From: Maritimibacter sp.
GTDB lineage: Bacteria; Pseudomonadota; Alphaproteobacteria; Rhodobacterales; Rhodobacteraceae
Assembly: GCA_002695005.1 (NCBI GenBank)
Contig: NZNT01000021.1
Span: forward strand, 1 to 64,000
Reading direction: 5' to 3'
Length of the DNA stretch: 64,000 nucleotides
Positions 4,467 through 34,876 of this stretch are shown one piece after another. The translations under genes were made by a program, and so were the position numbers. Under the pieces are notes generated by a model, which worked only from the letters and a program-made list of their open reading frames with translations, was not told where the DNA came from and searched no databases. The stretch's first letter is position 1; every line of letters begins with the position of its first letter.

Positions 4467-4493
4467 CTATGTCTCCTTGGAAGCGGCGGCGCG

Positions 4494-7341: not shown

Positions 7342-7343
7342 GG

Positions 7344-8258: not shown

Positions 8259-8278
8259 TGTCTGGTTCCAATTGGTGG

Positions 8279-8305: not shown

Positions 8306-8323
8306 ATGTCTGCCTGAACCAGC

Positions 8324-9856: not shown

Positions 9857-9878
9857 GTTCATTCCTCCCTGAAAAAAC

Positions 9879-10424
9879 TCAAGTGTTCGTGGTTTCACGG
9901 ACTGATTTGGTCAGCCTTCTGGTCAGCGCGTCTGCGTCTGGAGCTTCCTCCATCCGGGCGCGCAGTTTTGCGACAAGTCTGTAAATCTCGGAGCGCTCCC
10001 CGGGTTCGAGCCCGTCCAGAAGCCACAGGTTGCGGGACAGCATGATCGGCTTCACTCGGTCGAAAAGTTCTTGCCCCGCCTTGGTCACGAAAGGGGCGCC
10101 AAAGCCACGCTTCTGGCTCCCCGCCGGCCATGAAATCAGCCCTTCATCACGCAGGCGGCGCAACGCCCGGCTGATCTGCGCCGCGCTTTCGGCGGTGCGG
10201 TCGGACAGGTCGGACCCGTTCATTGGCCCGCGCACGCACAGGGTCGCAAGACAACGCCACTCCACCGGAGTGAGTCCGAAAGGCAGTTCGAGCAGCGCGC
10301 GGGTCTGGCGCTCCAACTCGTTGTTGAGCCAGTCGATCCTCACGGCGAGAGAGTCGGCGAGCGCATAGTCACCATCACTCAGATGACGCGGCACCTGCCC
10401 CTCTTCTTCACGCATTTTTGCCAT
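9879..10424 (-). CDS. MarR-family transcriptional regulator
   Basis: A 181-residue MarR-type winged helix-turn-helix protein: WRCLATLCVRGPMNGSDLSD leads the DNA-binding region, the recognition region is AAQISRALRRLRDEG, and a wing (SQKRGFGAPFVTKAG) follows. The ATG at 10424 has GAGAGG five bases upstream; the next in-frame start is a TTG. It is first in the importer operon and diverges from the oxygenase operon. It most likely represses both through the repeats at 10477-10514 and is relieved by the substrate, as is common for MarR regulators of aromatic catabolism. Confidence 0.9.
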   Translation of the reverse strand: MAKMREEEGQVPRHLSDGDYALADSLAVRIDWLNNELERQTRALLELPFGLTPVEWRCLATLCVRGPMNGSDLSDRTAESAAQISRALRRLRDEGLISWPAGSQKRGFGAPFVTKAGQELFDRVKPIMLSRNLWLLDGLEPGERSEIYRLVAKLRARMEEAPDADALTRRLTKSVRETTNT

Positions 10425-18176: not shown

Positions 18177-18304
18177 CAGAGCACCAAACCTTGCCTGCCA
18201 CCGACGAGCAGCGGCAGTCCGGCAAACGGAACGCCCAAGACGAGGCACAGGGCACTGGAGAACAAAGCAGCGAGAACCCGGACAGTGTGGGGAAAGCGGT
18301 GCAT
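18176..18304 (-). CDS. 42-residue hydrophobic phage protein
   Basis: A short frame exactly fills the space between the methyltransferase and helix-turn-helix genes. Its ATG (18304) overlaps the methyltransferase stop as TGATG, and its own stop overlaps the next ATG in the same way. The product begins MHRFPHTVRVLAALFSSALC and continues LVLGVPFAGLPLLVGG, one hydrophobic helix with a basic N-terminus, like a small membrane peptide. No family is recognised. The precise double coupling argues that it is translated. Confidence 0.55.
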   Translation of the reverse strand: MHRFPHTVRVLAALFSSALCLVLGVPFAGLPLLVGGRQGLVL

Positions 18305-19539: not shown

Positions 19540-19866
19540 TCAGGCCCCCGTCGGAAAAATGCTGCCTCTCCCCTTACTCTATCACAAATCATAACCCATT
19601 GTAATATCGACATTAATTGAAATATGGCGACACAGACCGCCATCCGTCGTCACGAGGTTGGACGTCTTAACGCATGCAACCCGGCCTTAGGCCGCAGGGC
19701 CCGGGACAGATGGGACAGAAGAAAACCATTTCTTCCTCACGCGCGCGCACGGGGAAAAAACGGTTTCTATCCGTCCCATCTGTCCCACATCCGGTTCACC
19801 GGGGATCAGGCGCATTGACAGCGGCGCACGGAATGGTTGAATCCCAGTGGGGAGGAAGACAGGGCG
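19540..19866. promoter_or_regulatory. Divergent control region with long imperfect inverted repeat
   Basis: This gap separates the leftward phage operon from the rightward QueC-like module. Arms at 19703-19727 and 19762-19786 (25 bases each) pair at 21 positions around a 34-base spacer. Each arm begins or ends with GGGACAGATGGGAC or its complement, so the unit GGGACRGA occurs four times in mirrored pairs. It could be a repressor operator or replication-protein binding cluster of the element. There is no gene. Confidence 0.5.
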
Positions 19867-20643
19867 ATGGGCCACGTTCATCTCGGTGTCCTGCCACGGA
19901 CACGCAAATGGAAAGATGTCGTCGAGTCCCTGAGTTCCGGCGCTGCGGATGAGGTCGTCGTAGCCACCAGTGCAAAAGCAGCCGAACGAGATCTGTTGTC
20001 CGCCACGGACAGCCCGGTATTCGTCGAGGCTGTCCGGCTGCTTCTTGCCATCCCTAACGCTGCGCGAGCGGACGACTTTGGAGATGCCCTCAGGGCCCTT
20101 GGCCTCGAGGTTGGCAACAGACCTGAACTCCTGGACATAACCATGGCCGTTGATAGGCGTCTGGACGTTGTCCGTCGCATGGCCGGCGGAGCGAACGACC
20201 TTGGCGAGATCGCGGCACGAGCGCTGATCACAACATTCTCCGAAACAGTGGGCGATCAGTTGCCGGGCCTGTTCGAGGCTACACCGGAGGATGTTCAGGC
20301 AGCGTCCAAGAAGCTTTCCTGGTCGCGCGGAATTGCTGGGTTGTCCCGCGCCTTCTATTCGCGATTGCTCTCACAATCGCTTTCATACTGGCTGGACCGG
20401 ACCCTCGCCCAGCAGGTGGGGCCCGGGGATCGTTTCTCGGGCGCCACCGCGAGAGGGGCGTTCGACGTCGCCCTTAACCACTACGCCCATGAATCGACGC
20501 GCATCATCCAAGAATTCTCTGGCGGGTGGTATGGCAAGACCATTCACGACAAGGGAGGCATTTCCTCCCATGACGCGGCCGTGTTCGGGGCGGTTGCGCT
20601 GAAGAAGATCGTCTCGGAATTGCAGGTGAGGCGTAGCCAGTGA
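19867..20643 (+). CDS. Unknown protein coupled to QueC-like enzyme
   Basis: A 258-residue protein of unknown family, first of a two-gene operon. I start it at MGHVHLGVLPRTRKWKDVVE (19867) with GGGGAGGAAG upstream; an ATG 30 bases earlier is less well placed. It is mainly helical and soluble, with no membrane segment. A middle region around LSRAFYSRLLSQSLSYWLDR and a late GGWYGKTIHDKGG stand out. Its stop overlaps the next start by 4 bases (GTGA). In the Qat defence system a QueC-like protein also works with a partner of this size (QatB), so a similar partnership is possible. Homology to QatB is not established. Confidence 0.6.
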   Translation: MGHVHLGVLPRTRKWKDVVESLSSGAADEVVVATSAKAAERDLLSATDSPVFVEAVRLLLAIPNAARADDFGDALRALGLEVGNRPELLDITMAVDRRLDVVRRMAGGANDLGEIAARALITTFSETVGDQLPGLFEATPEDVQAASKKLSWSRGIAGLSRAFYSRLLSQSLSYWLDRTLAQQVGPGDRFSGATARGAFDVALNHYAHESTRIIQEFSGGWYGKTIHDKGGISSHDAAVFGAVALKKIVSELQVRRSQ

Positions 20644-22514
20644 CCGACGCGCTCGTAAAATTCGATCCGGAGAAGCCCCCGATCAACGTGCGGTTTCGTG
20701 GCAGATTTCCAAACTTCTTCCTTGATGCTGACAAGCTCAGAGCCAAGGCCTTGTCCGAGATCGATCCCCTGTGCGACGACTTTCTGGAAATCGCATCGAC
20801 TGTTTTCGTGGCCGACAGCACCGTCAGCCGGGGCGGCGACAAACGTTCGGGGATGGGGCAAGACTGGCGTCGCGAGTTTTCTTTCAAGATTCCAGTTCGG
20901 CAGCCGGAGTTCTGGCAAAGACCGGATGTGACCGAAGCTTTGACAGATGCCGTGTCTTTCCTGACCGAGGACACAGTCCACTTCGCGTTCAAGGAAGGGG
21001 ACTTTTCCCAACCGAAAGAACCCTTCCTCGAGTTCGACCCGGCTGGGCCGCGGTTCGAAGCAAGCGAGGTCATCTTGTTCTCCGGCGGGCTCGACTCCTT
21101 TGCTGGCGCGCTTGAGACGCTGGCAACGACCAGCGACAAGGTCCTCCTGGTCAGCCACCAGTCCGCACAGAAGGTCATCTCGCGACAGGATGAACTGGGC
21201 GCGTATTTGGCAGAACGGTTCCCGGGTCGCGTCCAACATCTTCAGGTTAAGGCTCGACGCCGTGGTGCGGAGGGAAAAGAGACGACCCAACGGTCGCGCT
21301 CCTTGCTCTTCACGGCCCTCGGGTGGGCCGCCGCCAAGGCCCTGAGAATTCCTCGCCTGAGCTTCTACGAGAACGGAACGATCAGCCACAATCTTCCCAT
21401 CAGCCCCCAGGTTGTCGGGACGATGGCCACGCGGACGACGCATCCTCTGTCGTTGAAGAAACTGAATGATCTCTTGGAGCTACTCGGTCCCGGCCAGACC
21501 CGCATCGAGAATCGTTACGAATGGCTGACCAAGACGGACGTCGTTCGTAGGATCGAACAGAATGGCGGGACAGAGAAGATTGCGCGCGCGGTGAGCTGCA
21601 CGAGTGTCCGTGAACAGGACACTCTTCGCACGCATTGCGGTGCGTGTTCTCAATGTTTGGACCGACGTTTCGCAATTCTCGCGGCAGGTTTGGAAAAATA
21701 CGACCCTGCGGAGTGCTACGCCACCGACGTACTCTTCGGCGAGCGAGAGCGGGATCGGTCGGTCACGCTGGCGCTTGAATGGACGCGCCATGCACTCCGC
21801 TTTCGCGACATGGATGATCGCGATTTCCTGTCCACTTTCGGCCATGAACTCATGCGCATCCTGCGGGGACACGACGATCTGGAGCGAGCCGATGCCTTGC
21901 GCAGGGTCCGTGATCTCCATGTTCGCCACTCCGAAGCGGTCGCGCACGTTCTGGAAGGAGCATTGAAGGATAGGGCTGCCGACATCATAGCGCGACGGCT
22001 CCCGGAGTCGTCTCTTGTTGCGATGCACCTCGGGCAGCCGCGCGAGGGGGATCCCGGCCTGGCTCAAGACCCGCGCGCAGGTTCAGCGACTGTGCTTGAA
22101 ACCAACGACATCGTCGAGGAAGACCTCGTTCCGGACCAAAACAAGCCGTTGAAGGTGGCTTTTTTCGAAGAAGAAGGGAAACCGGTCGTCGCGGTCCAAG
22201 GTCTTGGCCGCATCGCAGGCGCCCCGGCGCAGATTCCGCACGCCTTGAAGCCTCGTTTCGATGAGGCCAGGGCAAACGGTTTGTTGCAGGATGACCACCC
22301 GTTTCATCCCCTCCCAACGTTAAGCGCGTTGCGGGACATGGATCCGAAAACCATCCGAAAGAACGTCCAACGCTGTCGGGCGCAACTGAAAGAGTTCTAT
22401 CTGGACGTCCACGGTGTCGAACCGGATTGCGTCCTGCTGATCGAGAGCAAGCCGCCGAAGGGTCACCGCCTCGATCCGGGCCTACAGGTGACACCGCGCG
22501 AACGAATCAACTGA
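20640..22514 (+). CDS. QueC-like PP-loop ATPase with N- and C-terminal extensions
   Basis: A 624-residue protein with a GTG start coupled to the upstream gene. After about 140 residues of unknown type comes a QueC-like core: PP-loop SGGLDS at 148-153, TQRSRSLLF (206-214), YENG (233-236) and four zinc-ligand cysteines, Cys320 and Cys333/336/339 (THCGACSQC). These are the features of 7-cyano-7-deazaguanine synthase. The roughly 250 C-terminal residues are extra and end in a possible winged helix (RKNVQRCRAQLKEFY). A housekeeping queuosine role is unlikely: QueC has about 230 residues, and no queD, queE or queF is near. QueC-like enzymes also occur in the Qat and type IV CBASS defence systems. 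Confidence 0.75.
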   Translation: MTDALVKFDPEKPPINVRFRGRFPNFFLDADKLRAKALSEIDPLCDDFLEIASTVFVADSTVSRGGDKRSGMGQDWRREFSFKIPVRQPEFWQRPDVTEALTDAVSFLTEDTVHFAFKEGDFSQPKEPFLEFDPAGPRFEASEVILFSGGLDSFAGALETLATTSDKVLLVSHQSAQKVISRQDELGAYLAERFPGRVQHLQVKARRRGAEGKETTQRSRSLLFTALGWAAAKALRIPRLSFYENGTISHNLPISPQVVGTMATRTTHPLSLKKLNDLLELLGPGQTRIENRYEWLTKTDVVRRIEQNGGTEKIARAVSCTSVREQDTLRTHCGACSQCLDRRFAILAAGLEKYDPAECYATDVLFGERERDRSVTLALEWTRHALRFRDMDDRDFLSTFGHELMRILRGHDDLERADALRRVRDLHVRHSEAVAHVLEGALKDRAADIIARRLPESSLVAMHLGQPREGDPGLAQDPRAGSATVLETNDIVEEDLVPDQNKPLKVAFFEEEGKPVVAVQGLGRIAGAPAQIPHALKPRFDEARANGLLQDDHPFHPLPTLSALRDMDPKTIRKNVQRCRAQLKEFYLDVHGVEPDCVLLIESKPPKGHRLDPGLQVTPRERIN

Positions 22515-22750: not shown

Positions 22751-22978
22751 ATGACGACAGACCAACCGTCCAGAACCTGGGGCGCGGGCGATCTTCGCTC
22801 GGTCGCTTCCGAACGCGCGTTGGCCGAGCGCTGGAACAAATCTCTACGTACCCTGCAGAGGTGGCGGAGCGAAGGCTATGGCCCGGCGTACATCCGCATC
22901 GGCGGCACTGTTCATTATCGCTTCGAGGACGTTCTCGCTTTCGAGGATCGTCAGCGCCGCGGCGGGGAGGAAGACTGA
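22751..22978 (+). CDS. Small helix-turn-helix protein (excisionase/AlpA-like)
   Basis: A 75-residue protein with a winged-helix pattern of the MerR/AlpA type: ALAERWNKSLRTLQRWRSEG followed by GPAYIRIGGTVHYRFEDVLA. The ATG at 22751 has CCGGAGG upstream. Its stop overlaps the primase start (TGATG). Proteins of this kind activate or excise integrated elements and commonly precede P4-type primases in alphaproteobacterial prophages. Confidence 0.8.
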   Translation: MTTDQPSRTWGAGDLRSVASERALAERWNKSLRTLQRWRSEGYGPAYIRIGGTVHYRFEDVLAFEDRQRRGGEED

Positions 22979-25293
22979 TGCCTCTCTCCACCGCAAATCC
23001 CAAGCAACAAGTCGATCCCGGCATGATCGACAGTTTCGTCCAGATCGTCTTCGGGTACCTCGACGGTCAAGTCCCGGTCCGGTTGCTCGCCGAAAAGGGC
23101 ACGCCTGCCCAGAAACCAAAGGCTTTCACGCTCCCCTGCTCCGGCCTGTCCGAAGCCTTGGTCGCACCAGCTCAAGGCGCGGTCCGGAGTGCTCGCGCCG
23201 TCTACGTGGTCCCCGGCACGGTCGCCACAGGCAGCTCTGGAAAGGCCAAGGACGTCAAGAGCACGGGTGTGGTCCTCGTCGATCTCGACGACGGAGACAT
23301 CATGAAGAAGCGGGAGCATCTGGAGCACGCCCTCGGGCCTGCGTCCATGGTGGTTGCATCGGGCGGACGGACCAAGGACGGCCAGGAAAAGATCCATCTG
23401 TACTGGCGCCTGACAAAAGCAGCTGAGGGGGCCGAAATGGAACGGGTCCGCTCTGTACGAGAACGGATCGCGGCCCGGGTGGCTGGAGATCCGTCCTTCA
23501 AGAGCCTCCACCAGCCGATCCGAGTTGCTGGCACGATCCACGGGAAGCACGGACGGTTTTCGCTTACGCGGATCGTGTCGATCAGCTCCGTAGAATACGA
23601 ACTTGGCGACCTCGAGGACCGTGTAGCGGCCATGCCTCAACTCGCCGCTTCTTCGGGGCATTCGATGAAAGTCGATGCTGCCCGCGATGGCCCTGGCGCG
23701 CACGATCTCATGACGCGCACGATCCGCGAAGGCGCGGTCGACGAGGTCACGCGGTTCGAAGCGCTCTCGAAGGTCATCGGCCATTGGGTAAGAACCGCGC
23801 GGTTGGGCCGCTGCAGCATCGACGAAGCATGGAGAGCGGTCGTCGACCACAATGCTGCGTCGATCTCACCGCCCTGGGACGAAGCGCGGCTTCGGCGCGA
23901 ATTCGATGCTTTGCTGGAGCGGGACACTGGAAACCACTCACACCCGAACCGGGCATACGATCCGAACAGCAGACTAACCACAAACTTCAGCGACGACACA
24001 CTCGCTGCACTGTTCGTCGATCGCGAGGGTTCCGACTGGCGGTATGTCGCAGCTTGGAAGGCCTGGTTGATCTGGACTGGCGCATGTTGGCAGCGCGACG
24101 AAACCAGCCGCGTTCGCGAGCAGGTGCGCCAAGCATGTCGAGCCGCGGCACTAACATGCGAAAAGCCGAACGACGTACATCGAATTTGCAGCGACAAGAC
24201 TATCTCGGCCGTGGTCCGGATAGCCGCGAGTGACCCTTCGATTGCCATTCGGACGTCGGACCTCGACGCCTTTCCGATGCTCCTGAACACGCCGGCCGGT
24301 GTAATCAATCTGGAGACGGGCGAAGTACGGGATCATGACCGGGACCTTTTGCTGACGCAGACAACCGCAGCCGCGCCGGGCCGCGGCTGTCCGCGCTGGA
24401 TCCGGTTTCTCGGGGAGATCACAAACGGGGACGCGGATCTACAAGCGTACCTGAAAAGGCTAGCCGGTTACCTCCTGTCTGGAACCACCTCCGAGCAGAT
24501 GTTCGCGTTCTTTCACGGTGCCGGGGCAAACGGCAAATCCGTGTTCATCCAGACGCTGGCCTCTGTACTCGGCGACTATGCTGCAACCGCGACGCTGGAC
24601 ACGTTCATGGCGTCCGCCACCAGCAAGCACCTGACCGAGCTGGCAGGACTACGCGGGGCCCGCATGGTCATCGTGCCCGAAACCGATCCGGGCCGAGCTT
24701 GGGCCGAAGGGCGCATCAAGAGTGTAACGGGCGGTGAGACAATCCGCGCGAACTTCATGCACCGGGATCATTTCGAGTTCGTTCCCCAGTTCAAACTCAT
24801 TGTCGCCGGCAACCATCGACCATCGTTGACCGGCACAGGCGAAGCGATGCAGCGCCGACTGCACCTCGTTCCCTTCGAGGTCACAATCCCGGCCGAGCGG
24901 CGCGACGTGCACCTTCTGGCGAAGCTTCAGGAAGAACGCGACGGCATCCTCGGATGGATGCTCGAAGGTTGCGCCGAATGGCGCGAACAAGGCCTTTCGC
25001 CTCCGTCTGGCATCCTCGACGCAGCCTCAAGCTATTTTGCTGAGGAAGATCTGGTCGGCCAATGGATCGAGGAAAACTGCGAAACTGGTTCTCAATGCAA
25101 GGCAACCGCTCAGGCATTGTTCATGAACTGGTCCCATTGGGCCGAGGCGGCCGGCCACCCGAAAGGCACTAAGAAGAGCCTGGGCGAGGCCTTGAGACAG
25201 AGGGGTTTCAAGAGCGGCAAGGTCATGCGCACGAGGGGTTGGTTCGGACTGCGGCCCTCCGGAAAGGCACCGGAGTGCCGGGAGGGTCAGTAA
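22978..25293 (+). CDS. Phage/plasmid primase-helicase, P4 family
   Basis: A 771-residue replication protein. The N-terminal half resembles a primase/RepB-like module (VVLVDLDDGDIMKKREHLEH, then SGGRTKDGQEKIHLYWRL). A D5-type region and a superfamily 3 helicase follow, with Walker A GAGANGKS at about 514-521, VIVPETD as Walker B and the sensor stretch KLIVAGNHRPSL. It initiates replication of the element and unwinds its DNA. The ATG at 22978 is coupled to the helix-turn-helix gene. The next small gene starts inside its stop codon (TAATG), so the operon is tightly packed. Confidence 0.92.
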   Translation: MPLSTANPKQQVDPGMIDSFVQIVFGYLDGQVPVRLLAEKGTPAQKPKAFTLPCSGLSEALVAPAQGAVRSARAVYVVPGTVATGSSGKAKDVKSTGVVLVDLDDGDIMKKREHLEHALGPASMVVASGGRTKDGQEKIHLYWRLTKAAEGAEMERVRSVRERIAARVAGDPSFKSLHQPIRVAGTIHGKHGRFSLTRIVSISSVEYELGDLEDRVAAMPQLAASSGHSMKVDAARDGPGAHDLMTRTIREGAVDEVTRFEALSKVIGHWVRTARLGRCSIDEAWRAVVDHNAASISPPWDEARLRREFDALLERDTGNHSHPNRAYDPNSRLTTNFSDDTLAALFVDREGSDWRYVAAWKAWLIWTGACWQRDETSRVREQVRQACRAAALTCEKPNDVHRICSDKTISAVVRIAASDPSIAIRTSDLDAFPMLLNTPAGVINLETGEVRDHDRDLLLTQTTAAAPGRGCPRWIRFLGEITNGDADLQAYLKRLAGYLLSGTTSEQMFAFFHGAGANGKSVFIQTLASVLGDYAATATLDTFMASATSKHLTELAGLRGARMVIVPETDPGRAWAEGRIKSVTGGETIRANFMHRDHFEFVPQFKLIVAGNHRPSLTGTGEAMQRRLHLVPFEVTIPAERRDVHLLAKLQEERDGILGWMLEGCAEWREQGLSPPSGILDAASSYFAEEDLVGQWIEENCETGSQCKATAQALFMNWSHWAEAAGHPKGTKKSLGEALRQRGFKSGKVMRTRGWFGLRPSGKAPECREGQ

Positions 25294-25487: not shown

Positions 25488-25930
25488 TGCCTGACCCGAT
25501 CCCTGCCCGTCTGGCCGCGTTGAAGACGACCTCCACACCAGACCTGAAGTCCCAGTGGCGCGACCTCTTCGACAGCGAGCCGCCTCCGTTCAACCGGCGA
25601 TATCTGGAAAGCCGGCTGGCCTACCGCATCCAGGAACTGGCTTACGGTGGGCTCAAGCCCGAAACCGTCAAACGGCTGGAGAGGCTGGGCGAGGAACTCG
25701 ATGGCGGCGACCGCAAGAAGAGCCGCATCCGCGCGGACCTAAGGCCTGTCGCGGGCACCCGTCTGATCCGCGTATGGCAGGGCGTCGAGCACGTCGTCAC
25801 CGTCACCACGGACGGCTTCGAATGGCAGGGTCGTCCCTACAAATCCCTGTCCGCCATCGCGCGCGCCATCACCGGCACGCGATGGAACGGATGGGTCTTC
25901 TTCGGGCTCAAGAACAGGAGAAAGTTATGA
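25484..25930 (+). CDS. DUF2924 protein (recombinase companion)
   Basis: A 148-residue basic protein with the DUF2924 pattern: LAALKTTSTPDLKSQWRDLF, NRRYLESRLAYRIQELAYGG, and a C-terminal RVWQGVEHVVTVTTDGFEW, then LSAIARAITGTRWNGWVFFG. The family almost always neighbours a large serine recombinase in alphaproteobacterial elements, and its job is probably in integration or excision. It overlaps the recombinase start by 4 bases (ATGA). Confidence 0.9.
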   Translation: MMPDPIPARLAALKTTSTPDLKSQWRDLFDSEPPPFNRRYLESRLAYRIQELAYGGLKPETVKRLERLGEELDGGDRKKSRIRADLRPVAGTRLIRVWQGVEHVVTVTTDGFEWQGRPYKSLSAIARAITGTRWNGWVFFGLKNRRKL

Positions 25931-27237
25931 CCGACAAGATCACCCGAAAGCTGCGCTGTGCGATCTACACGCGCAAATCGACCGAGGAAGGTCTGGAACA
26001 GGAGTTCAACTCGCTCCACGCCCAGCGGGACTCCTGCGAGGCGTTCATCGCCAGCCAACGCTCCGAGGGCTGGGTGCTGGTTCGTGATCAATACGACGAC
26101 GGTGGCATCTCGGGCGGTACACTAGACCGCCCTGCCCTGCAGCGCCTGCTGGAGGACATCGAAGATGGGCTCGTGGATGTGGTGGTGGTCTACAAGATCG
26201 ACCGCCTCAGCCGATCGCTCGCCGACTTCGCCAAGCTGGTCGAGGTGTTCGACCGCAACGGCGTGACCTTCGTCTCCGTCACCCAGTCGTTCAACACGAC
26301 CACATCCATGGGGCGGCTTACGCTGAACATCCTGCTGTCCTTCGCCCAGTTCGAACGGGAGGTCACCGCCGAGCGCATCCGCGACAAGGTCGCGGCGAGC
26401 CGCAAGAAGGGCATCTGGATGGGGGGCGTACCGCCTTACGGATACCGTGTGGAAAGCCGGAAGCTGGTTGTGAACTACGCACGCGCCGAGAATGTCCGGT
26501 GGATATTCGCGCGCTTCCTCGAAGTCGGGTCAGCCACGATCTTGGCACGCGAACTCGACGCGCGCGGCATTCGCACGCCCATGGGCAATCGGATCGACAA
26601 GAAGTACCTGTACCGCATGCTGAACAACCCCGCCTATATCGGCGAAGCGGTCCACAAAGGCGACAGCTACCCCGGTGAGCACGACGCGATCATCGACCGC
26701 GAGACGTGGGACCGGGTTCACAACATCCTGCAGGAAAGCGCGCGAAAGCGCGCCGCACGGACCCGCGCAGACACGCCTGCACTGCTGAAGGGGCTCCTCT
26801 TCGGGCCTGATGGCGCTGCCTTTTCGCCCACACATACTAGGAAGGGCGACCGGCTCTACCGCTACTATGTCAGCCAGACGGTGCTGAAGCACGGCGCCGG
26901 ATCCTGCCCGGTCGGCCGGGTGCCGGCGGGCGAGATCGAGATGGCCGTCATCGACCAGCTGCGGGCGGTGTTCCGCCAGCCGGAGATCGTCGCGGGCACA
27001 TGGAAGGCGGCGCGCAAGCATGCCGACGACATCACTGAGGCGGACGCGCGGGAAGCCCTTCAGCAGCTCGACCCGCTGTGGGACGAATTCTTCCCCGCCG
27101 AGCAGGCGCGGATCGTTGGGCTGCTGGTCGAGCGCGTCGACATCGGCACGGACGGGCTCAACGTGCGTCTCCGCGTCGACGGGCTCAGCGGTCTGGCCCG
27201 CGAGATGCTGGCAGGCGACATCGGAGAAGCTGCATGA
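25927..27237 (+). CDS. Large serine recombinase (site-specific integrase)
   Basis: A 436-residue recombinase. The N-terminal catalytic domain has the nucleophilic serine in AIYTRKSTEEGLEQEFNSL, then YDDGGISGGTLDRPALQRLL, KIDRLSRSLADF and FAQFEREVTAERIRDK. A recombinase domain (GGVPPYGY and YLYRMLNNPAYIGEA) follows, with a short zinc-ribbon-like region near the end. It is expected to integrate and excise the element. Its start overlaps DUF2924 and its end overlaps the next helix-turn-helix gene, forming the well-known three-gene cassette. Confidence 0.93.
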   Translation: MTDKITRKLRCAIYTRKSTEEGLEQEFNSLHAQRDSCEAFIASQRSEGWVLVRDQYDDGGISGGTLDRPALQRLLEDIEDGLVDVVVVYKIDRLSRSLADFAKLVEVFDRNGVTFVSVTQSFNTTTSMGRLTLNILLSFAQFEREVTAERIRDKVAASRKKGIWMGGVPPYGYRVESRKLVVNYARAENVRWIFARFLEVGSATILARELDARGIRTPMGNRIDKKYLYRMLNNPAYIGEAVHKGDSYPGEHDAIIDRETWDRVHNILQESARKRAARTRADTPALLKGLLFGPDGAAFSPTHTRKGDRLYRYYVSQTVLKHGAGSCPVGRVPAGEIEMAVIDQLRAVFRQPEIVAGTWKAARKHADDITEADAREALQQLDPLWDEFFPAEQARIVGLLVERVDIGTDGLNVRLRVDGLSGLAREMLAGDIGEAA

Positions 27238-27617: not shown

Positions 27618-27956
27618 CGGCCCAAAGCTGCCATCCAATTAAAAGATCGCAACGCTGCCTTTCGTTCACGGCGCAGCAATCCAATGGTTTGAATAACGGC
27701 AACGCGGACGAAGCTGACATCCGGCCCGAGCTCGACAGCGACCGATCCCAGCCCGAAGCGGCGCTGCTCGCGATGACCGTCACAACGTTGCCACTCAGGC
27801 ACGATGAACCGCACCCGGGCAGCCCACCTTTCAGCGATTGGCAAATTCAGCCACACCCCATCAATATCTTGCGTCGGGAGCCCTCATGGATTCAGATAGC
27901 AGTGAGCGGTTCAGACCGGCGCGGCGATCGGTCGACAAGAATTTTGAGGGGGAACC
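27618..27956. other. Gap between recombinase cassette and MazG/UDG operon
   Basis: No gene is supported in these 339 bases. The stretch should contain the right attachment site of the recombinase element and the promoter of the MazG-UDG operon. Neither can be pinned down by eye because serine-integrase core sites are only a few bases long. A good ribosome-binding site (GAGGGGGAACC) ends the gap just before 27957. Confidence 0.5.
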
Positions 27957-29132
27957 ATGGCGGAGGAATTTGTCCCGCTTACGATCCAGCAATACTCGAC
28001 TGACGCGTTGGCAACCGACCGGCGCCGAGATATCACCTCACTAAACTTCCCGCTGCTTGGCCTGTTTGGTGAGATCGGCACGCTGCTCAGCGCGGTCAAA
28101 AAAAAGCAGCGCGATAGCATTGCCTTCAAAGCGTATGCTGGGGCGGTCAACGAGGAACTGGGAGATGCCCTCTGGTATCTCAATCTGGTTGCCTGCAAGG
28201 GTGGCATCTCGCTGGCTGAAATCGTCACCAATATGGGTCATGACGCAGAAGACTGGGTTCTGGCAACGGATGCGGACCTGACCTTCGAAGCGCTGCAGCC
28301 CCCGGTCATCGAATTTAAGACGACACCCACGGCCGAGTTCGAACGCACTCTGACCCGGTTGGCAGCAACCGTCGGTAAACTGATGCACGAGCAGGAGGAA
28401 GAGGAACTCATAAATGATAGGCGACGCCTCGGGCCATGTCTCGTCAGCGTCCTCGACGCGCTCGTCAACGCTGCAACCGAAGCTGGCGTGACCCTTGAGG
28501 CCGCGGCAGTTAAAAACCTGAAAAAGACCAATGACCGCTGGCCCGTGCACCGGCAGTATCCACCCTTCTTCGACGCGGACGCCCCGCAGGAAGAGCAGTT
28601 GCCGCGCGCGCTCGAGATCGAGGTTTTCGAGCGTGAGGTAGGCGGCAAACTCTATGTCTTTCAGCGCTGCAACGGCCTCAACATCGGTGATCGCCTGACC
28701 GACAATGCCATGGCACCGGATGATTACCGCTTCCATGACGTGTTTCACTACGCCTATGTCGCGGTCTTGGGTTGGTCCCCCGTCACGCGCTCGCTATTCA
28801 AACTCAAACGCAAAAGTCTGCCGAAGATCGATGAAGCACAGGACGGGGCACGCGCAGGCCTGATCGAAGAAGGCATTGCCACGTACATCTTCGGGCAGGC
28901 TATCGATCTCAACTTTTTCGCCGATCACAAGCCCGGCGATCTGCCTTTCGATCTTCTGAAGCAGGTCCGGCAATTCGTTGCCGGCTATGAAGCCGAGGAC
29001 TGCCCGCCCTGGCTCTGGGAAGACGCGATTCTGCAGGGTTACGCGGTGTTCCGCTATCTAAAGGAACACCGGCGAGGCAAAGTCATCATCGACGCAGAAA
29101 ACAGAAAACTATCCGTGGAGGCACTATCATGA
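27957..29132 (+). CDS. MazG-like NTP pyrophosphohydrolase with C-terminal extension
   Basis: A 391-residue protein. The N-terminus is a MazG-type all-alpha NTP pyrophosphohydrolase: GLFGEIGTLLSAVKKK (35-50) and NEELGDALWYL (65-75) supply the acidic metal ligands, though the usual ExxE is ExxT here (Glu39, Thr42). A second similar helical pair lies at about 130-200, ending EAGVTLEAAAVKNLKKTNDR. A C-terminal domain (about 220-391) has YRFHDVFHYAYVAVLGWSP with His260 and His264. I think this is the MazG C-terminal domain seen in mobile-element proteins. It probably hydrolyses a modified or ordinary (d)NTP. It is coupled by ATGA to the UDG-like gene. Confidence 0.8.
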   Translation: MAEEFVPLTIQQYSTDALATDRRRDITSLNFPLLGLFGEIGTLLSAVKKKQRDSIAFKAYAGAVNEELGDALWYLNLVACKGGISLAEIVTNMGHDAEDWVLATDADLTFEALQPPVIEFKTTPTAEFERTLTRLAATVGKLMHEQEEEELINDRRRLGPCLVSVLDALVNAATEAGVTLEAAAVKNLKKTNDRWPVHRQYPPFFDADAPQEEQLPRALEIEVFEREVGGKLYVFQRCNGLNIGDRLTDNAMAPDDYRFHDVFHYAYVAVLGWSPVTRSLFKLKRKSLPKIDEAQDGARAGLIEEGIATYIFGQAIDLNFFADHKPGDLPFDLLKQVRQFVAGYEAEDCPPWLWEDAILQGYAVFRYLKEHRRGKVIIDAENRKLSVEALS

Positions 29133-29815
29133 AGACACCCCATAGCTTTGTCGCGGCCCTGAGCGATGTCAGCCTGCCCGATGTCTTCAATCCTTATCGG
29201 GATCAGTGTCCGCTCCATGACCGCCACGACGCCCCCACCCGTCGCCGCCAGAATCTGGAGGCTTGTCTCAGCAGCGCGGTCAGCCTCGGTGCCGATACCA
29301 TCTGGATCGCCCGCGATCTCGGCTATCGCGGGGGGCGCCGGACCGGTCTGCCGCTGACCGACGAAGCGCATCTGTCCAATGCCGCCGACCTCTTCGGCGG
29401 CGTGGCTTTGCAACAAGCTACTAAGGGACCAGCCCTCGCCGAGCGAACCGCGTCCGTTACCTGGGACTTACTGGATCAGATCGGTCGACCGGTCATGCTC
29501 TGGAACGTGTTTCCGTTCCACCCGCATGACGCCGACGAGCCCATGTCCAATCGCTGCCACCGGAAATCCGAGCGGGACGCCACCTGGCCCTTTATGACGG
29601 CCCTGATCACCATGCTCCAGCCACGGACCCTGGTGGCAATCGGTCGTGATGCCGGCCATGCGTTGGCCGATTTGGACTGCCAGGTCGAAACCGTACGACA
29701 CCCCAGCTATGGTGGACAGGCAGAGTTCATTAACGGCATTCGCAAGATTTACGATCTACCAGACACGCGCCGATTGGAAACCACCGCCCCCTTGCCCTTT
29801 GTGGAATTCGCCTAA
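29129..29815 (+). CDS. Uracil-DNA-glycosylase-superfamily protein
   Basis: A 228-residue protein with the UDG fold pattern. DVFNPYRDQCPLHDRHDAP opens the protein, IWIARDLGYRGGRRTGLPLT (58-77) occupies the place of motif A, and VRHPSYGGQ (189-197) is motif B with the HPS loop. The catalytic Asp/Asn position of classical families is not obvious, so base excision is not certain. It may act on a modified base or nucleotide. It is coupled to the MazG-like gene by a 4-base overlap, and its stop overlaps the stop of the convergent thymidylate-synthase-like gene. Confidence 0.75.
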   Translation: MKTPHSFVAALSDVSLPDVFNPYRDQCPLHDRHDAPTRRRQNLEACLSSAVSLGADTIWIARDLGYRGGRRTGLPLTDEAHLSNAADLFGGVALQQATKGPALAERTASVTWDLLDQIGRPVMLWNVFPFHPHDADEPMSNRCHRKSERDATWPFMTALITMLQPRTLVAIGRDAGHALADLDCQVETVRHPSYGGQAEFINGIRKIYDLPDTRRLETTAPLPFVEFA

Positions 29816-30594
29816 GCCGCGACCGCCAGTTCCGCGTCCACCTGATCGAGCAGGCTCGTGATATCGCCGCGGCGCGTAGTGCCGCCGGCGCAGGTCCGCA
29901 TCTGGTCGATCTGCGCGTGGGACGACAGCACCGTCAGCGATCCAACCTCGAGCCCCGTCTCTGCCGCCACAAATGACAACAGCCGACCGAGGCCGATAAG
30001 GTTACCGAGCAGCTTCTCGATATAGTAGTGGTTGCGATACATCGCCGTCAGGTTCACGACGTCCGGGCTGCCAGGCATGGTCTTGAAGCTCAGATAGCTA
30101 AGACATTGTCCGCCATAAGGCGACCGGTTGAGGTCCCGGGCCGGGTCAAACAACGCCAACTCAAACTTGTTCCGAGATGTGACCGCCGGATCGGCCATAC
30201 GCTGCACCAGGTCCCATAGCGGGTTGTTGTGCGGCGCTCCGTCCCAGCTGGTCATGCGCTCGAAATAGTAACCCGACCACTTCTCCTTGTCGCGGACCTT
30301 GGGCAATATCTTCTCGTGAAACTCCGTGAAGAACTCCGGCGCGCCATGCCGGCGGTATAGCGCAGCGGGGAAGATCGTGTTGGCGATGGACTGCAAGGAC
30401 TTGTCATGCTGACGTAAGAAATCGTCGACCGGCTTGATCCCCGGATCGGCAAGCCCGGTCCCGTTGACTGGGTCTGCCACCGACATGATTACGTTGTGAG
30501 CCTCATGGCCGGGTTCGGCATCGACGACCCGGACTGCCTCTCGCCAGGTGGTCAGGCAGGTGGAGTCAGGCCGCAGCGGCACAGTGTGGTACAT
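29812..30594 (-). CDS. Thymidylate-synthase-like protein
   Basis: A 260-residue protein resembling thymidylate synthase and pyrimidine hydroxymethylases in its C-terminal half. SPYGGQCLSYLSFK places Cys164 where the catalytic cysteine sits. Y-R-N-H at 186-189 and Asn198 in the following helix match the nucleotide-phosphate and base-recognition region. TGLEVGSLTVLSSHAQID carries His226. An Asn at the base-recognition position would favour dUMP over dCMP if the alignment holds. A housekeeping ThyA would be better conserved (PPCH). The ATG at 30594 has GGAAGAG upstream and lies 29 bases inside the protease gene. It is last in the leftward operon. Confidence 0.7.
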   Translation of the reverse strand: MYHTVPLRPDSTCLTTWREAVRVVDAEPGHEAHNVIMSVADPVNGTGLADPGIKPVDDFLRQHDKSLQSIANTIFPAALYRRHGAPEFFTEFHEKILPKVRDKEKWSGYYFERMTSWDGAPHNNPLWDLVQRMADPAVTSRNKFELALFDPARDLNRSPYGGQCLSYLSFKTMPGSPDVVNLTAMYRNHYYIEKLLGNLIGLGRLLSFVAAETGLEVGSLTVLSSHAQIDQMRTCAGGTTRRGDITSLLDQVDAELAVAA

Positions 30595-31249
30595 CAGTCT
30601 CTTCCGTCAAAATCGCCATATCAAACAAGTTCTTCTCAACGAATGCCCGGGAAACCCAGGCATAGCCGTCCTGCCCCCAGCTTGATCCCCAGCTGTTGCG
30701 GATCAAAACGACATCCGTCGACCCCGTCGAACCATGTCCCACGGCGATCACTGCGTGCCGGGGCACCGGGAACACATCATCACCATCAACATAGTCGATG
30801 ACCCCCTGAACTGGCGGCTGGAAGAATGCCATCGTGAGTTTCATCAGGGTGATGACCGGTTTTCCGTTATCCAGCGCGCCGGTAATCCTGTCGAAGCCGA
30901 TGCTTTGGCGCCCGCCGTCACGCCCGAATATTTCGCCCACCGACGCCGGTGGCGCGTAACTCGTCAGATCAGGGGGCAGAGTTGCCAGGTATGGCCAAGA
31001 ATATTCAAGGGGTTGTCCATCCAGCCGAAGCGCCTCGAGCATCGGTTCGAGATAGGTTCCCCGGTCTGGCGGTTGCCCGGCACGCTTCTGCGCATGGAAA
31101 AAGGCATATTCGCTCGAGAGCGGCTCCCAGGCCGGTCGGCACGCGGCATGTGCATCACTGGCCGCGAAAGCGAGACAGGTCGGACGATCACCTTGATCCC
31201 GCACCTCGCCGAACTGAGCCCGAAGGTCCACCACCGCCGTGACCATCAT
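30566..31249 (-). CDS. Papain-like cysteine protease (C1 family)
   Basis: A 227-residue papain-fold protease with all active-site residues in order: Gln19 and Cys25 in VRDQGDRPTCLAFAASDAH, His165 in VPRHAVIAVGHG, Asn185 in IRNSWGSSWGQDGYAW. It has neither signal peptide nor inhibitory propeptide, so it should be made as an active enzyme inside the cell. Its start overlaps the metallopeptidase stop (TAATG). The upstream protein carries a chagasin-like domain, the fold that inhibits this protease family, which gives an obvious way to keep it in check. Confidence 0.85.
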   Translation of the reverse strand: MMVTAVVDLRAQFGEVRDQGDRPTCLAFAASDAHAACRPAWEPLSSEYAFFHAQKRAGQPPDRGTYLEPMLEALRLDGQPLEYSWPYLATLPPDLTSYAPPASVGEIFGRDGGRQSIGFDRITGALDNGKPVITLMKLTMAFFQPPVQGVIDYVDGDDVFPVPRHAVIAVGHGSTGSTDVVLIRNSWGSSWGQDGYAWVSRAFVEKNLFDMAILTEETDVPHCAAAA

Positions 31250-32262
31250 TAGGCCGCCTCCAAACGCTGTCGACGTTCTGCACGCGACAGGCCGGCTTGC
31301 TCCGGCCCCGTAAAGTCGAGATCGATCTCAAGCCTATTGCGACGCTGTTCGAAGTCCCAGGGACGTGCTTCATCGATGACCATACGGCCCCGGAACTCGT
31401 CGGGTGGTTGCGCAGTGATGCGGCGGATGCCGGGCTCGCCAACCCTTTCTTCCGCCTGATCCTCCACGGCGTTGCCAACAACTACGAACCCGCTGTCGCG
31501 CAGCTGATCGAGGTTCCATAGATAGCCGCCATTGCTGTGCTCCGTCAGCTTAAGCACGAAAAGATCATTTGCACTGCCATCGATGCGGGCACCAGCATCG
31601 CGCTCCGTCAGCAACCAAACATCACCGCGGTAGTTCTGTGGCCTGAACTCCGCGAGCAAAGCCTCCTTCATCACCCGTGGCCGGGTCTGCAAAAGATCGC
31701 GGGCCTGCTTCTGCGTTATCATTTTGTACCGCACAAAGGTCCAGCATAACGCTTCGTAGCTGGCCCCAAGCCGAAGGCTAAGCTGATAGACCGTACTTGG
31801 CCGATGGAGATCAGCCACCACCCAGCCCTGCAGGCGCATATGCAGCGCCAGGAGCCATTTCGGCATCATGAACCCGACGGCAAACGCGTCCGCTTCGACT
31901 TCCTGGAACGCATGACCCGGCTCGAGATTAACCGGCATCCGCCGCAGTATGCTGTCCTCATCATCAAGGCTTGGCTCATGGTCAAGCATGCAATGCCCAA
32001 GCTCATGGGCGGCAGTGAACCTCTGAATGGAAAGCGGTCGCTCTGTCGTCACCAGAATGCCGCGTGCCGGGATGCTGAGATAGGCCCCCAGCAAGCCCTC
32101 CAGCGGCCGAAGCATCAAGGGTACATTCAGCTGACTGATCAGACCGAAGACGTTCACCGCGCTGCGTTCGACTTCAAGCCTCGCTCGAAGGTCAAGCCGC
32201 TGATGCAGACGAGAGGCCGCCGCCGTTCCCTTTCTGACTGCCTGTGCATAGGGTGAAACCAT
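31249..32262 (-). CDS. ImmA/IrrE metallopeptidase fused to chagasin-like domain
   Basis: A 337-residue two-domain protein. The N-terminal ImmA/IrrE-type zinc peptidase has HELGH at 86-90 and the third-ligand motif EVEADAFAVGF (121-131). Residues about 213-318 resemble a chagasin (I42) cysteine-protease inhibitor: the three inhibitory loops are seen as NGGYLW (254-259), GEPGI (285-289) and RPWDFE (310-315), matching the N-x-T-T-G-Y, G-x-G-G and R-P-W loops. ImmA-type enzymes typically cleave a partner XRE repressor, and one is encoded 3 bases upstream. The protein may both sense a signal and restrain the papain-like protease encoded next. The domain call is by motif only. Confidence 0.75.
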   Translation of the reverse strand: MVSPYAQAVRKGTAAASRLHQRLDLRARLEVERSAVNVFGLISQLNVPLMLRPLEGLLGAYLSIPARGILVTTERPLSIQRFTAAHELGHCMLDHEPSLDDEDSILRRMPVNLEPGHAFQEVEADAFAVGFMMPKWLLALHMRLQGWVVADLHRPSTVYQLSLRLGASYEALCWTFVRYKMITQKQARDLLQTRPRVMKEALLAEFRPQNYRGDVWLLTERDAGARIDGSANDLFVLKLTEHSNGGYLWNLDQLRDSGFVVVGNAVEDQAEERVGEPGIRRITAQPPDEFRGRMVIDEARPWDFEQRRNRLEIDLDFTGPEQAGLSRAERRQRLEAA

Positions 32263-32265
32263 CGA

Positions 32266-32637
32266 TTACTCCGGTTCCGTCTCGGCACGGGTTCTTAGGT
32301 ACTCGGCAAACCGACCAAGTTCGTCGCGATCCTTGCGGGACAGATCAGCGGCCTTCCGTGCTAGGTGAGCGACATCAACCGGATAAGACGACGCCGTCTC
32401 ATCTTCGCCGGTGAAATAGGCAGCCGGCTGACGATATAGCTTGGCCAGTCGGTTGAGTTCCAGGACTTCAACACGCCGCGTGCCGCCTTCGATTTCCGAC
32501 AGGGCCGTGCGCGGTATCTTCAAGTATTGCGCCACCTCATCCTGTTTCAAGCCAAGGTACTTTCTGGCCTCCCGCAGACGTTCCCCCAGCTTTCTCCGGG
32601 CTTCGCGATCCTCGTTATCGTCCTTCCTGCCACTCAT
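32266..32637 (-). CDS. XRE-family regulator
   Basis: A 123-residue protein with one XRE helix-turn-helix: LGERLREARKYLGLKQDEVA then QYLKIPRTALSEIEGGTRRV. A C-terminal region, AAYFTGEDETASSYPVDVAH, resembles repressors paired with ImmA/IrrE peptidases. I start it at MSGRKDDNEDREARR (32637), where the ATG overlaps the preceding stop as TGATG; the longer frame lies inside that gene. It very likely represses its own operon and is the substrate of the metallopeptidase encoded next. Confidence 0.85.
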   Translation of the reverse strand: MSGRKDDNEDREARRKLGERLREARKYLGLKQDEVAQYLKIPRTALSEIEGGTRRVEVLELNRLAKLYRQPAAYFTGEDETASSYPVDVAHLARKAADLSRKDRDELGRFAEYLRTRAETEPE

Positions 32638-32975
32638 CACTTGGTCCCACCCTGCTTTTTCTGCCACTGGTTTTCCAGCCGTGGCAGCAGGTGATCGAGC
32701 GCGTCCTGGACGCTGGCATATCCGCCGGCCCGCACAGTGGCATCCGGCGGCGGAAAGCCCAGCACCGGTTCGACGGAACAAAGGATCCCGACGGCAACCA
32801 GCGAGTCAATCGGTACCGGCGCCGTCACGGCCTGTGCCTGTTGCGTCGGCATCGCGATCCCTAGCATGCTGGCCTCCGTATCAGCCGCCAGCAAAAGTTC
32901 ATCGGTCAGGAGCAGTTCGAGCTCATGAAGCGGGAAGACCATCTGTTCTTTGGTTGGGGCGGATGTACTACTCAT
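32637..32975 (-). CDS. Unknown protein, first gene of protease operon
   Basis: A 112-residue protein starting MSSTSAPTKEQMVFPLHELE. It is acidic in the middle (LLLTDELLLAADTEASMLGI) and ends with VQDALDHLLPRLENQWQKKQ. I recognise no family. There is no signal peptide or membrane helix. Its stop overlaps the XRE start (TGATG), which argues for a real gene and a shared role. The chosen ATG (32975) has only a weak ribosome-binding site. Confidence 0.55.
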   Translation of the reverse strand: MSSTSAPTKEQMVFPLHELELLLTDELLLAADTEASMLGIAMPTQQAQAVTAPVPIDSLVAVGILCSVEPVLGFPPPDATVRAGGYASVQDALDHLLPRLENQWQKKQGGTK

Positions 32976-33327
32976 ATCAATGTGTCTGATGTTCCGGGTC
33001 CACACAGATATATCGTCGGATTTTCCAACATTCAAGTCTTTTCGTTCTGGATAGTCGACGTCGCGGACGCGATCTATCACGAGCTACCATCGTAACTTGG
33101 CTATGGGCATCAGAACCCGCCATCCGTGAACGTACACGTCGTTGCGGAGCCTGTGGCAGCAGATCACTGCATCGAGAAAGGTCAAATGGCCGGTTTGGGC
33201 CGGTCGCGACATGTGACGCGAGCCAACCATTGTGGCTTTGCAAAGACTGGTTCCTGCACAACTCGGTTGTTCGTGAGAGGCGCAGCGAACGACCGCTCTC
33301 CGCCCCAAGTGCTGGGCGGCCCGTTCC
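32976..33327. other. Promoter region of protease operon up to the IS element
   Basis: No gene is supported. The leftward operon promoter must lie near 32980-33080, where the sequence is AT-richer. At 33282-33304 lies a 23-base sequence that recurs at 37517-37539 with two mismatches, a dispersed repeat. The IS1182 element starts 23 bases further on. Confidence 0.5.
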
Positions 33328-34876
33328 GGCCTATTCTGTTGAAAAACTCCGCTTGCATGAAGGGCTGGCCGCTGATTCAATTTGGCTGCGGCAGCTTGAG
33401 GTGAACGGCGATGATGGGGTCCCGACAGGAGGCGCAAGGCGCTCTCTTCTACGAGTTCTCGATCGAAACGCACGTTCCGCCCGACCACATGCTCAGATCG
33501 GTTGATCAATTCGTCGACCTGGCCAGCATCCGGCAGCACCTGGCACCATTCTACAGCTCGACCGGACGACCGTCGGTTGATCCGGAGCTGATGATCCGCA
33601 TGCTTCTGGTGGGTTACATCATGGGCATCCGGTCCGAGCGCCGGCTCTGCGAGGAGGTCCATCTCAACCTTGCCTACCGCTGGTTCTGCCGCCTCGATCT
33701 GACGGTCCCGGTGCCGGATCATTCGACCTTTTCCAAGAACCGCCACGGCCGCTTCCGCGACAGCGACCTGTTGCGCCAACTCTTCGAGTCCGTGGTGGCG
33801 CGCTGCCTTGAGGAGGGCCTCGCCAGCGGCCAGCGCCTCGCCGCGGACGCCAGTATTATCGCGGCTGACGCGAACCGACAGAACTCCACGCCGAAGTCGG
33901 ACTGGCAGCCGGGCAGCATCGACCCCATAGACGCGCCCCGGGCTGTCAGGGAATATCTGGACACACTCGATGATGCCGCCTTTGGCGCAGCGAGCCCGGT
34001 CGAGCCGAAGTTCACCTCCCATTCCGATCCCGCTTCGCAATGGACCGGGGCTCGAGGAGGTCCGGCCTACTTTGCCTATTCTACCAACTACCTGATCGAT
34101 ACCGACAACGGCGTGATCCTTAATGTGGAGGCCACCCGGTCGATCCGCCAGGCTGAGGTTGGATCGGTGCGGACCATGATCGACCGGGTGAACGATACCT
34201 TCGGCATCGCACCGGAACGGCTGATCGCCGACACCGCCTACGGCACCGGCGTCATGCTGGACTGGCTGGATCAGCAGCGCGGCATCGCACCCCATATCCC
34301 GGTGGTCGACAAGTCAGCCCGTAGGGATGGGACATTCGAGCGCGCCGACTTCGCCTATGATGCCGAGAGGGATGCCTACATCTGCCCGGGCGGCAAGGAG
34401 TTGAGGCAAAGCCGCCGGGCCTTCACGAAACCCCGAGAGATGAAACCCGATGACGATGGCATGCTTCGCTACCGCGCCGGCAAGGCCGATTGTGATGCCT
34501 GCGACCTGAAGGCGCGCTGCTGCCCCAAGGAGCCGTCTCGAAAGGTAACCCGATCAATCTTCGAGCCCTCCCGGGATCGGGCGCGTGCGATCGCTCAGAC
34601 GACCGACTACGCGATCTCCTGCAAGCTCCGGAAGAAGGTGGAGATGCTCTTCGCGCATTTGAAGCGAATTCTGGGCCTCAGCCGTCTCCGGTTGCGAGGC
34701 CCGAGCGGCGCACGAGATGAATTCCACCTCGCAGCCACCGCACAGAACCTCCGGAAGCTCGCAAAGCTCCTTCCGACGCCACCGGTCTCCTGTTGAGGTA
34801 GGTTAGGCACAGGCACCGCAAATCATGGGCAAGGGTCAACGCGATCACCGAGCCGGGTTTTTCAACGGAATAGGCC
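33328..34876 (+). mobile_element. IS1182-family insertion sequence with terminal inverted repeats
   Basis: The element spans about 1.55 kb. The left end reads GGCCTATTCTGTTGAAAAAC (33328-33347). The right end, read as complement from 34876, is GGCCTATTCCGTTGAAAAAC, so 19 of 20 end bases match. One full-length transposase gene lies between. The bases just outside the ends (GTTCC and CTTAG) show no target duplication. The insertion may be old, or neighbouring sequence may have been lost or exchanged. Confidence 0.85.
33411..34796 (+). CDS. IS1182-family transposase
   Basis: A 461-residue DDE transposase that appears complete. The N-terminal DUF772-like region has GRPSVDPELMIRMLLVGYIM and ERRLCEEVHLNLAYRWFCRL. 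The catalytic DDE region includes GQRLAADASIIAADANRQ and LIADTAYGTGVMLDWL. A cysteine cluster (CDACDLKARCC) precedes the C-terminal FAHLKRILGLSRLRLRG. The frame is intact, so the enzyme could be active. A large open frame on the opposite strand is a shadow of this gene. Confidence 0.93.
   Translation: MMGSRQEAQGALFYEFSIETHVPPDHMLRSVDQFVDLASIRQHLAPFYSSTGRPSVDPELMIRMLLVGYIMGIRSERRLCEEVHLNLAYRWFCRLDLTVPVPDHSTFSKNRHGRFRDSDLLRQLFESVVARCLEEGLASGQRLAADASIIAADANRQNSTPKSDWQPGSIDPIDAPRAVREYLDTLDDAAFGAASPVEPKFTSHSDPASQWTGARGGPAYFAYSTNYLIDTDNGVILNVEATRSIRQAEVGSVRTMIDRVNDTFGIAPERLIADTAYGTGVMLDWLDQQRGIAPHIPVVDKSARRDGTFERADFAYDAERDAYICPGGKELRQSRRAFTKPREMKPDDDGMLRYRAGKADCDACDLKARCCPKEPSRKVTRSIFEPSRDRARAIAQTTDYAISCKLRKKVEMLFAHLKRILGLSRLRLRGPSGARDEFHLAATAQNLRKLAKLLPTPPVSC

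Follow-up and report, generated by a model that had tools for sequence, protein, structure and literature searches.

The closest described counterparts of the locus presented here fall into three groups. In CapH/CapP of the cyclic oligonucleotide-based antiphage signaling system (CBASS) and in DdrO/PprI, an XRE-family repressor is followed by an HEXXH peptidase. Single-stranded DNA (ssDNA) activates PprI, which carries a GAF-like domain, and also activates cleavage of CapH by CapP (PMC10904395, accessible text). The second group is the chagasin family and its papain-family proteases; its conserved loops are L2 (NPTTG), L4 (GXGG) and L6 (RPW/F) (PMC2607524, accessible text). In the third group, a 5-hydroxymethyluracil (5-hmU) DNA kinase belongs to a phage thymidine hypermodification gene set (PMC11955845, accessible text), and the accessible part of the DefensePredictor study gives thymidylate synthase (TS) and 5-hydroxymethyluracil kinase as newly validated anti-phage domains, with MazG and MazG-C as predictions (PMC13092281). 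Features of all three groups are found in a seven-gene, 5.3-kb cassette of Maritimibacter sp. (assembly GCA_002695005.1), located within the first 64,000 nucleotides of contig NZNT01000021.1, the stretch analysed here and referred to as the window. With a probability of roughly 0.55, we read it as a nucleotide- or base-modifying and perhaps defensive cassette, governed by a CapH/CapP-like switch and containing a papain-like protease that would be held by an inhibitor fused to the sensor peptidase.

The cassette encodes, in order on the reverse strand, a carrier protein, an XRE repressor, a fusion of an ImmA peptidase with a chagasin-type I42 domain, a papain-like C1 peptidase and a TS-like enzyme. 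Two convergent genes on the forward strand complete it, encoding a uracil-DNA-glycosylase-like (UDG-like) protein (29129..29815; PF03167, E 3.1e-5) and a MazG-MazG_C nucleotide enzyme (27957..29132; PF18722, 1.9e-79, and PF03819, 6.9e-6). The original prediction, made from the letters of this DNA, had proposed a five-gene unit; all five genes lie on the reverse strand at the positions it gave and the unit is real, but it was drawn too small, with the UDG-like and MazG-MazG_C genes outside its coordinates. The carrier and XRE genes meet in a TGATG junction and the fusion and C1 genes in a TAATG junction, while 3 nt separate XRE from ImmA and the C1 and TS genes overlap by 29 nt. Promoter scanning returned three candidates against 2.0 expected, and terminator scanning three against 5.1. 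The arrangement is far beyond chance, because the same gene order returns in related loci. As a conserved unit the cassette occupies 27791..33136, a single block that is 86% identical to a locus of an uncultured Litoreibacter (L029); no other blastn match (E 1e-20) exists between the 16.8-kb L029 stretch and the window, and the flanks are unrelated.

The XRE-family repressor (32266..32637, reverse strand, 123 aa) matches PF13560 (1.8e-9) and is CapH-like, with RmrA (2e-13) and capH (9.1e-13) as its best PADLOC matches. The adjoining gene (31249..32262, reverse strand) encodes the 337-aa fusion, in which Pfam places a Peptidase_M78 domain of the ImmA/IrrE type at residues 65-173 (E 1.4e-7) and for which capP is the best PADLOC match (1.4e-13). 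The HEXXH residues His86, Glu87 and His90 and the third ligand Glu121 are kept in 101 of 101 aligned relatives (E<1e-25). When a profile of 15 fusions (alignment A3) was compared with the PDB, the M78 part matched CapP (2.2e-6) and IrrE (7.2e-6). An AlphaFold2 (AF2) model of the fusion, built from 34 window, genome-contig and viral-contig proteins, reached a pLDDT of 88.8 and a pTM of 0.87; in the Foldseek table for this model, which gives no residue ranges, PprI stands in row 6 and IrrE in rows 11-12. By analogy with CapH/CapP, the pair suggests induction by a signal. The GAF-like C-terminal domain of PprI was not found in the fusion, whose positions 213-311 align with the chagasin family. 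Since I42 sits where PprI has its GAF-like domain, a PprI-like ssDNA trigger is not simply transferable to this protein. The cassette also differs from CBASS in that no cyclase is present among its seven gene products.

The original prediction had claimed a chagasin-like C-terminal part for this protein, and the predicted fold bears this out. The I42 domain covers about residues 212-316 (31315..31629, reverse strand) and was recognised by profile, Foldseek and motifs. Inhibitor_I42 aligns with residues 231-312 at E 6.9e-6 and 26.7 bits, slightly below the Pfam cut-off of 27.2, and scores 29.8 bits, above the cut-off, in a genome-wide search; it is the only PF09394 match in the 4.27-Mb, 99.8% complete genome. 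The profile of fusions matched amoebiasin-2 over positions 213-311 (E 1.7e-11) and chagasin at about 6e-3, and the top five Foldseek rows are EhICP2 (four) and chagasin (3m86_B, TM-score 0.79, E 1.4e-7, and 2oul_B, TM-score 0.78, respectively). The motif G-[YF]-x-W is present in 97 of 97 aligned I42 domains, one of which is encoded by a separate gene (L019). The L6 loop reads RPW in 90 of the 97, RAW in three and neither in four. The likeness to the chagasin family thus extends to fold, the L6 RPW motif and an adjacent papain-like enzyme; the difference is that the inhibitor is here fused to a sensor-type metallopeptidase and shares one operon with its presumed target.

That presumed target is the papain-like C1 peptidase (30566..31249, reverse strand, 227 aa; PF00112, E 9.4e-13), which in a profile search matches Blo t 1 (mite allergens) and cathepsins, best at 3e-21. 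It had been described from the sequence as a complete C1 protease without a propeptide, and this holds: the protein starts at the mature domain, its catalytic residues are intact and the catalytic Cys is residue 25. The active-site Gln (99%), Cys (99%), His (100%) and Asn (100%) are conserved among 98 aligned sequences, which include two from outside the cassette. The genome has no second PF00112 match, and its only I42 match is encoded by the adjoining gene.

The association of the two domains was followed through 106 loci besides the window, a set selected on TS and M78. A single genome-contig scan based on the TS alignment returned 315 pattern matches and 236 relatives; only the best 80 of the 236 were used, and near relatives are over-represented as a result. 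One locus with no M78 in its stretch (L097) and the short or repeat stretches L001-L004, L116-L119, L152 and L153 were left out, and two pairs, L030/L150 and L033/L148, look like the same places counted twice, their contigs being of equal length. TS, M78 and XRE were found in all 106 loci, with XRE just upstream of ImmA in the CapH/CapP manner, the acyl carrier protein (ACP) in 101 and MazG in 100. C1 and I42 were each found in 96, UDG in 89, the 5-hydroxymethyldeoxyuridine (5-hmdU) DNA kinase in 15 and phosphopantetheinyl transferase (PPTase) in 12. C1 and I42 occur together in 96 loci and are both missing from ten (L027, L028, L110-L115, L146, L147), and neither occurs alone. When the TS stretch is required to reach 200 aa, 102 loci qualify, and 85 of them contain C1, I42, UDG and MazG together. 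The interpretation given with the original prediction is borne out in part: C1 and I42 keep constant company, but as an addition to a carrier/TS/MazG_C cassette that is also found without both (10/106).

The proposal would have been in difficulty had the papain-like gene occurred in most relatives without the fusion; in the searches made, the fusion adjoins C1 in 16 of 18 plasmid records with a C1 relative, and the other two are distant (26-27% identity). Any C1 match was found in 20 of 398 genomes sampled from the phylum; only two of these matches pass E 1e-90, both from cassette members, and the next reaches 5e-24. Separate I42 genes also occur beside C1. On a Priestia megaterium plasmid (L019, 5914-7108), C1 is directly followed by an I42 gene (3e-9), and a second locus (L160, genome G491) has C1 beside a weakly matching one (8e-4). 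On the Sphingomonas plasmid C8-2 (L154, not counted among the 106), the I42 part and C1 are both broken, and the carrier, XRE, TS and UDG are annotated as genes. Such linked behaviour is also what would be expected if C1 were a killing effector, in an abortive-infection or toxin-inhibitor pair riding in the cassette with TS and carrier as regulators or passengers, an explanation close to that of the original prediction. This explanation draws on the inhibitor-then-protease order with its TAATG coupling, the joint presence and absence, the joint breakage in L154, and the rarity of broken C1 and I42 open reading frames (ORFs), one of 100 each (both in L063) against five of 111 for TS, where L096 and L097 share one piece. 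These breakage numbers are small, and the near-constant TS, XRE, M78, carrier and MazG genes, together with the ten loci in which the core persists without C1 (in a set selected on TS and M78), make the effector explanation an unlikely one. In L022, L025, L096 and L098 the TS gene is in pieces, with C1 and I42 ORFs open.

The ten ImmA proteins from C1-less loci bear on whether the I42-like domain is merely structural, an Ig-like element of this ImmA subfamily with no inhibitory action on its neighbour. In these proteins, too, 102-130 aa follow M78, and in hhalign the homology of the Streptomyces type extends into the beginning of the I42 region. By eye, however, all ten tails are without the G-Y-x-W and RPW motifs that are general in I42, and the best PDB match of the I42 region is the chagasin family, so that a purely structural role seems distinctly improbable. 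The alignment of the Streptomyces type may mean that the inhibitor loops arose on, or were lost from, an older Ig-like tail, but the hhalign probabilities obtained with the tails alone, 37% for the Streptomyces type, 65% for all ten and 1.7% for the cyanobacterial type, fall short of a claim.

The first gene of the cassette (32637..32975, reverse strand) encodes the 112-residue product that the original prediction had listed as an unknown protein. Its DS motif and profile matches instead identify it as a carrier-protein homologue, very probably an acyl carrier protein, with Ser58 of the DS motif as the likely phosphopantetheine site. The motif is kept in 15 of 15, 32 of 32 and, among relatives at E<1e-8, 99 of 99 sequences; two distant relatives (L112, L113) have Asn-Ser in its place. 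The AF2 model (pLDDT 82) contains helices at 16-38, 46-50, 58-72 and 89-107, and Ser58 opens the third. Of the 39 PDB matches of the carrier profile nearly all are named carrier proteins (best E 0.0025), and a Streptomyces relative matches PF00550 (PP-binding) at 1.2e-7 and 32.3 bits against a cut-off of 20.8. In L004, L014, L017, L023 and L025 the carrier gene has a PPTase gene as its neighbour, and the PPTase count given above refers to the fetched stretches. Of the five loci with no ACP profile match, three have a small gene with a Ser at that place, L146 ends at a contig edge, and the fifth is L147.

Papain-clan folds are capable of acyl transfer. With a carrier and a PPTase in the same neighbourhood and a C1 protein that starts without a propeptide, C1 might then be no protease, its thiol instead mediating acyl or amide transfer from the carrier onto a modified base, with I42 as a docking module. 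We give this possibility little credence: TS persists without C1 in ten loci, at least eight of them with a carrier gene, so C1 is dispensable for that chemistry, and conservation extends to both the Gln-Cys-His-Asn set of papain and the RPW motif of I42.

The TS-like enzyme (29812..30594, reverse strand, 260 aa) matches TIGR03283 at E 1.7e-7 and has a catalytic-type Cys164, which does not vary in the 13 rows of alignment A2 or in a set of 128 rows of TS and TS-like sequences. An ordinary ThyA or thymidylate synthase proper was rejected, as the match scores 30.9 bits against an NCBIfam equivalog cut-off of 174.55. In the UDG-like protein, Asp63 and His191 are each kept in 88 of 90 sequences. 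UDG is present in 89 of the 96 loci with C1, and it never occurs together with the 5-hmdU DNA kinase in the 106; two loci (L050, L106) have neither, and the window contains no match to the kinase profile. This exchange suggests two ways of acting on one modified base, and TS, 5-hmdU kinase, MazG_C and UDG would together point to uracil or thymine nucleotide or base chemistry. The likeness to thymidine hypermodification gene sets and DefensePredictor domains lies in the TS-like enzyme and, in relatives, the 5-hmdU DNA kinase (PF18723) and MazG_C; the cassette departs from them in having a carrier, an XRE-ImmA switch and the C1/I42 pair, and a UDG where the kinase would stand.

The form with C1 was found in some 90 distinct loci, mostly in Alphaproteobacteria but also on one plasmid from Betaproteobacteria and one from an archaeon, and the C1-less form also occurs on Streptomyces and cyanobacterial plasmids. 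The archaeal case (L014, Haloarcula marina plasmid, 4227-10416) has the five-gene set, with the carrier, the I42 fusion and C1 among its members; genes for a dTMP kinase, a 5-hmdU kinase and a PPTase lie in the neighbourhood, and neither UDG nor MazG was found within the stretch. Among the 398 phylum genomes, 30 have a match to the TS profile and four are clear cassette members (G455, G228, G425 and the genome of the window itself, G000). A near full-length fusion is present in four of 147 relatives including the genome itself (G000, G003, G005, G090); within the genus it is found in G003 and G005, and no match was obtained in G001, G002, G004, G006 or G007. This uneven presence marks the cassette as a patchy, mobile trait. 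In plasmids, the ImmA-I42 query retrieved 21 records, 15 of them covered to at least 80%, and the C1 query 18; 13 of the 21 and 11 of the 18 are of conjugative type. A phage origin was considered and rejected, with matches to two TS queries (E 1e-3) in none of 50,697 phage records, none of 14 in a second viral scan, and two IMG/VR contigs (L109, L110) among 66 pattern matches.

The conjugative plasmids raise the question of whether the cassette, instead of being an immune system, marks or protects the DNA of its own mobile element by hypermodifying it against restriction. Some cassettes have a 5-hmdU DNA kinase, dCTP deaminase, dTMP kinase or second TS as neighbours, and the phage affiliation of the 5-hmU DNA kinase fits as well. 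This explanation nevertheless appears improbable, given that the cassette is also chromosomal (for example L063), that the UDG-like gene replaces the kinase in most loci, and that no amino-acid or amine transferase was recognised among the seven gene products.

The preferred reading, of a CapH/CapP-like switch governing a cassette with a braked protease, can be set out as follows. The cassette moves horizontally and has an enzymatic core of the TS-like enzyme, the carrier, MazG-MazG_C and either the UDG-like protein or the 5-hmdU DNA kinase. These enzymes would probably make or act on a modified deoxyuridine or thymidine nucleotide or base, and the modification would perhaps serve defence against phages or other elements. 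By homology with CapH/CapP and DdrO/PprI, the XRE protein would repress the operon and the ImmA domain would cut it on a signal. The TAATG junction is expected to have inhibitor and protease made together, giving an ImmA-I42:C1 complex at rest in which I42 would plug the C1 active site for as long as the ImmA protein stays unaltered and is not outnumbered. Activation of ImmA would then both cut XRE and loosen the brake, and the freed C1 could cut a target, perhaps a protein of the cassette, the cell or a phage, with carrier and XRE in reach. A more specific version, a carrier-dependent nucleotide- or base-modifying immune cassette under a two-protease cascade in which sensing induces the operon and arms the propeptide-less C1, is offered only tentatively. 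The explanations weighed here are not all mutually exclusive.

Several observations weigh against this reading. The chagasin L2 and L4 loops are kept only in part: NPTTG is not kept in the L2 region, where only G-[YF]-x-W is general, and one Gly is general in the L4 region. In a TS tree of the window and 52 sequences with pairwise identities below 80%, all C1-less rows fall on one side of a single branch (100/96), so that the joint presence of C1 and I42 counts as one event, to which there are no exceptions since; the long branches of L014, L015, L146 and L149 make the deep placement unsure. The broken pair in L154 is a single copy and may contain a sequencing error. Of the 50 Foldseek rows listed for the carrier model, about 40 are carrier proteins or carrier domains judging by title and length, with a best E of 0.43 that is not significant. 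The window carrier protein itself has no Pfam match and profile searches of the window yielded no PPTase (the rest of the genome was not searched for PPTase), so the carrier assignment rests on relatives. No relative of two TS queries was found in the 50,697 phage records (E 1e-3). Finally, defence genes in the flanks of 24 module loci (137 ORFs of 190 called) were compared with those of 19 arbitrary stretches from related genomes (127 of 229 called; 20 had been sought and one was too short) using PADLOC at E 1e-10. The tally of 69 families against 5 in the control counts families, not members, and 21 of the 25 listed flank families are GajA models with one member each. By members, the listed rows, which leave out 44 families, point to about 7 in the flanks provided that no member recurs, compared with 3 to 5 for the control.

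On plasmids, and here without a control, neighbours named as defence or toxin genes include Shedu (L017), SIR2 (L112) and AbiEii (L013), and caspase-family genes neighbour the cassette in L021, L022, L024 and L025. In three rhizobial plasmids such genes lie 1-2.5 kb upstream of the carrier (L021, 3317-5239; L022, 3299-5224; L025, 2633-3826). In the window, a gene on the forward strand 5-7 kb from the cassette (20640-22514) encodes a QatC/QueC-like protein (PADLOC QatC, 2.3e-57; PF06508, 2.3e-5) and may be a Qat-like defence gene; the ORF directly before it (19837-20643) has no Pfam or PADLOC match. A DNA methyltransferase (18304-19539, reverse strand; PADLOC type II model, 8.5e-106), a D5-type primase/helicase (22861-25293, forward strand) and a large serine recombinase (25555-27237, forward strand) give this region the look of an integrative element. 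Just upstream of the cassette, beyond the end of the L029-shared block at 33136, lies an IS1182-family transposase gene (33411-34796, forward strand), and a serine beta-lactamase-fold protein (PF00144; 35005-36246, reverse strand) is encoded beside an AraC-type regulator.

Literature searches, as far as the sources were accessible, returned no description of this make-up, which may be listed in part in base-modification surveys; in the accessible main text of PMC13092281 the words acyl carrier, ImmA and papain are absent. We judge the cassette to be of a CapH/CapP-like-controlled nucleotide-modification type with a putatively braked protease. It is not assigned to CBASS or to the phage hypermodification systems because defining features that were tested for are absent. 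The pairing of chagasin and papain types with the probable inhibitor built into a neighbouring regulator looks new, and a fused-inhibitor pair in one bacterial operon is a ready test case for the role of such inhibitors in bacteria. A carrier encoded next to a TS-like enzyme suggests thioester chemistry acting on nucleotides, and the exchange of UDG for the kinase hints at the nature of the base chemistry. If the two-protease version is true, a system joining nucleotide chemistry, a carrier and a switch made of a fused inhibitor and its protease would be of a new type.

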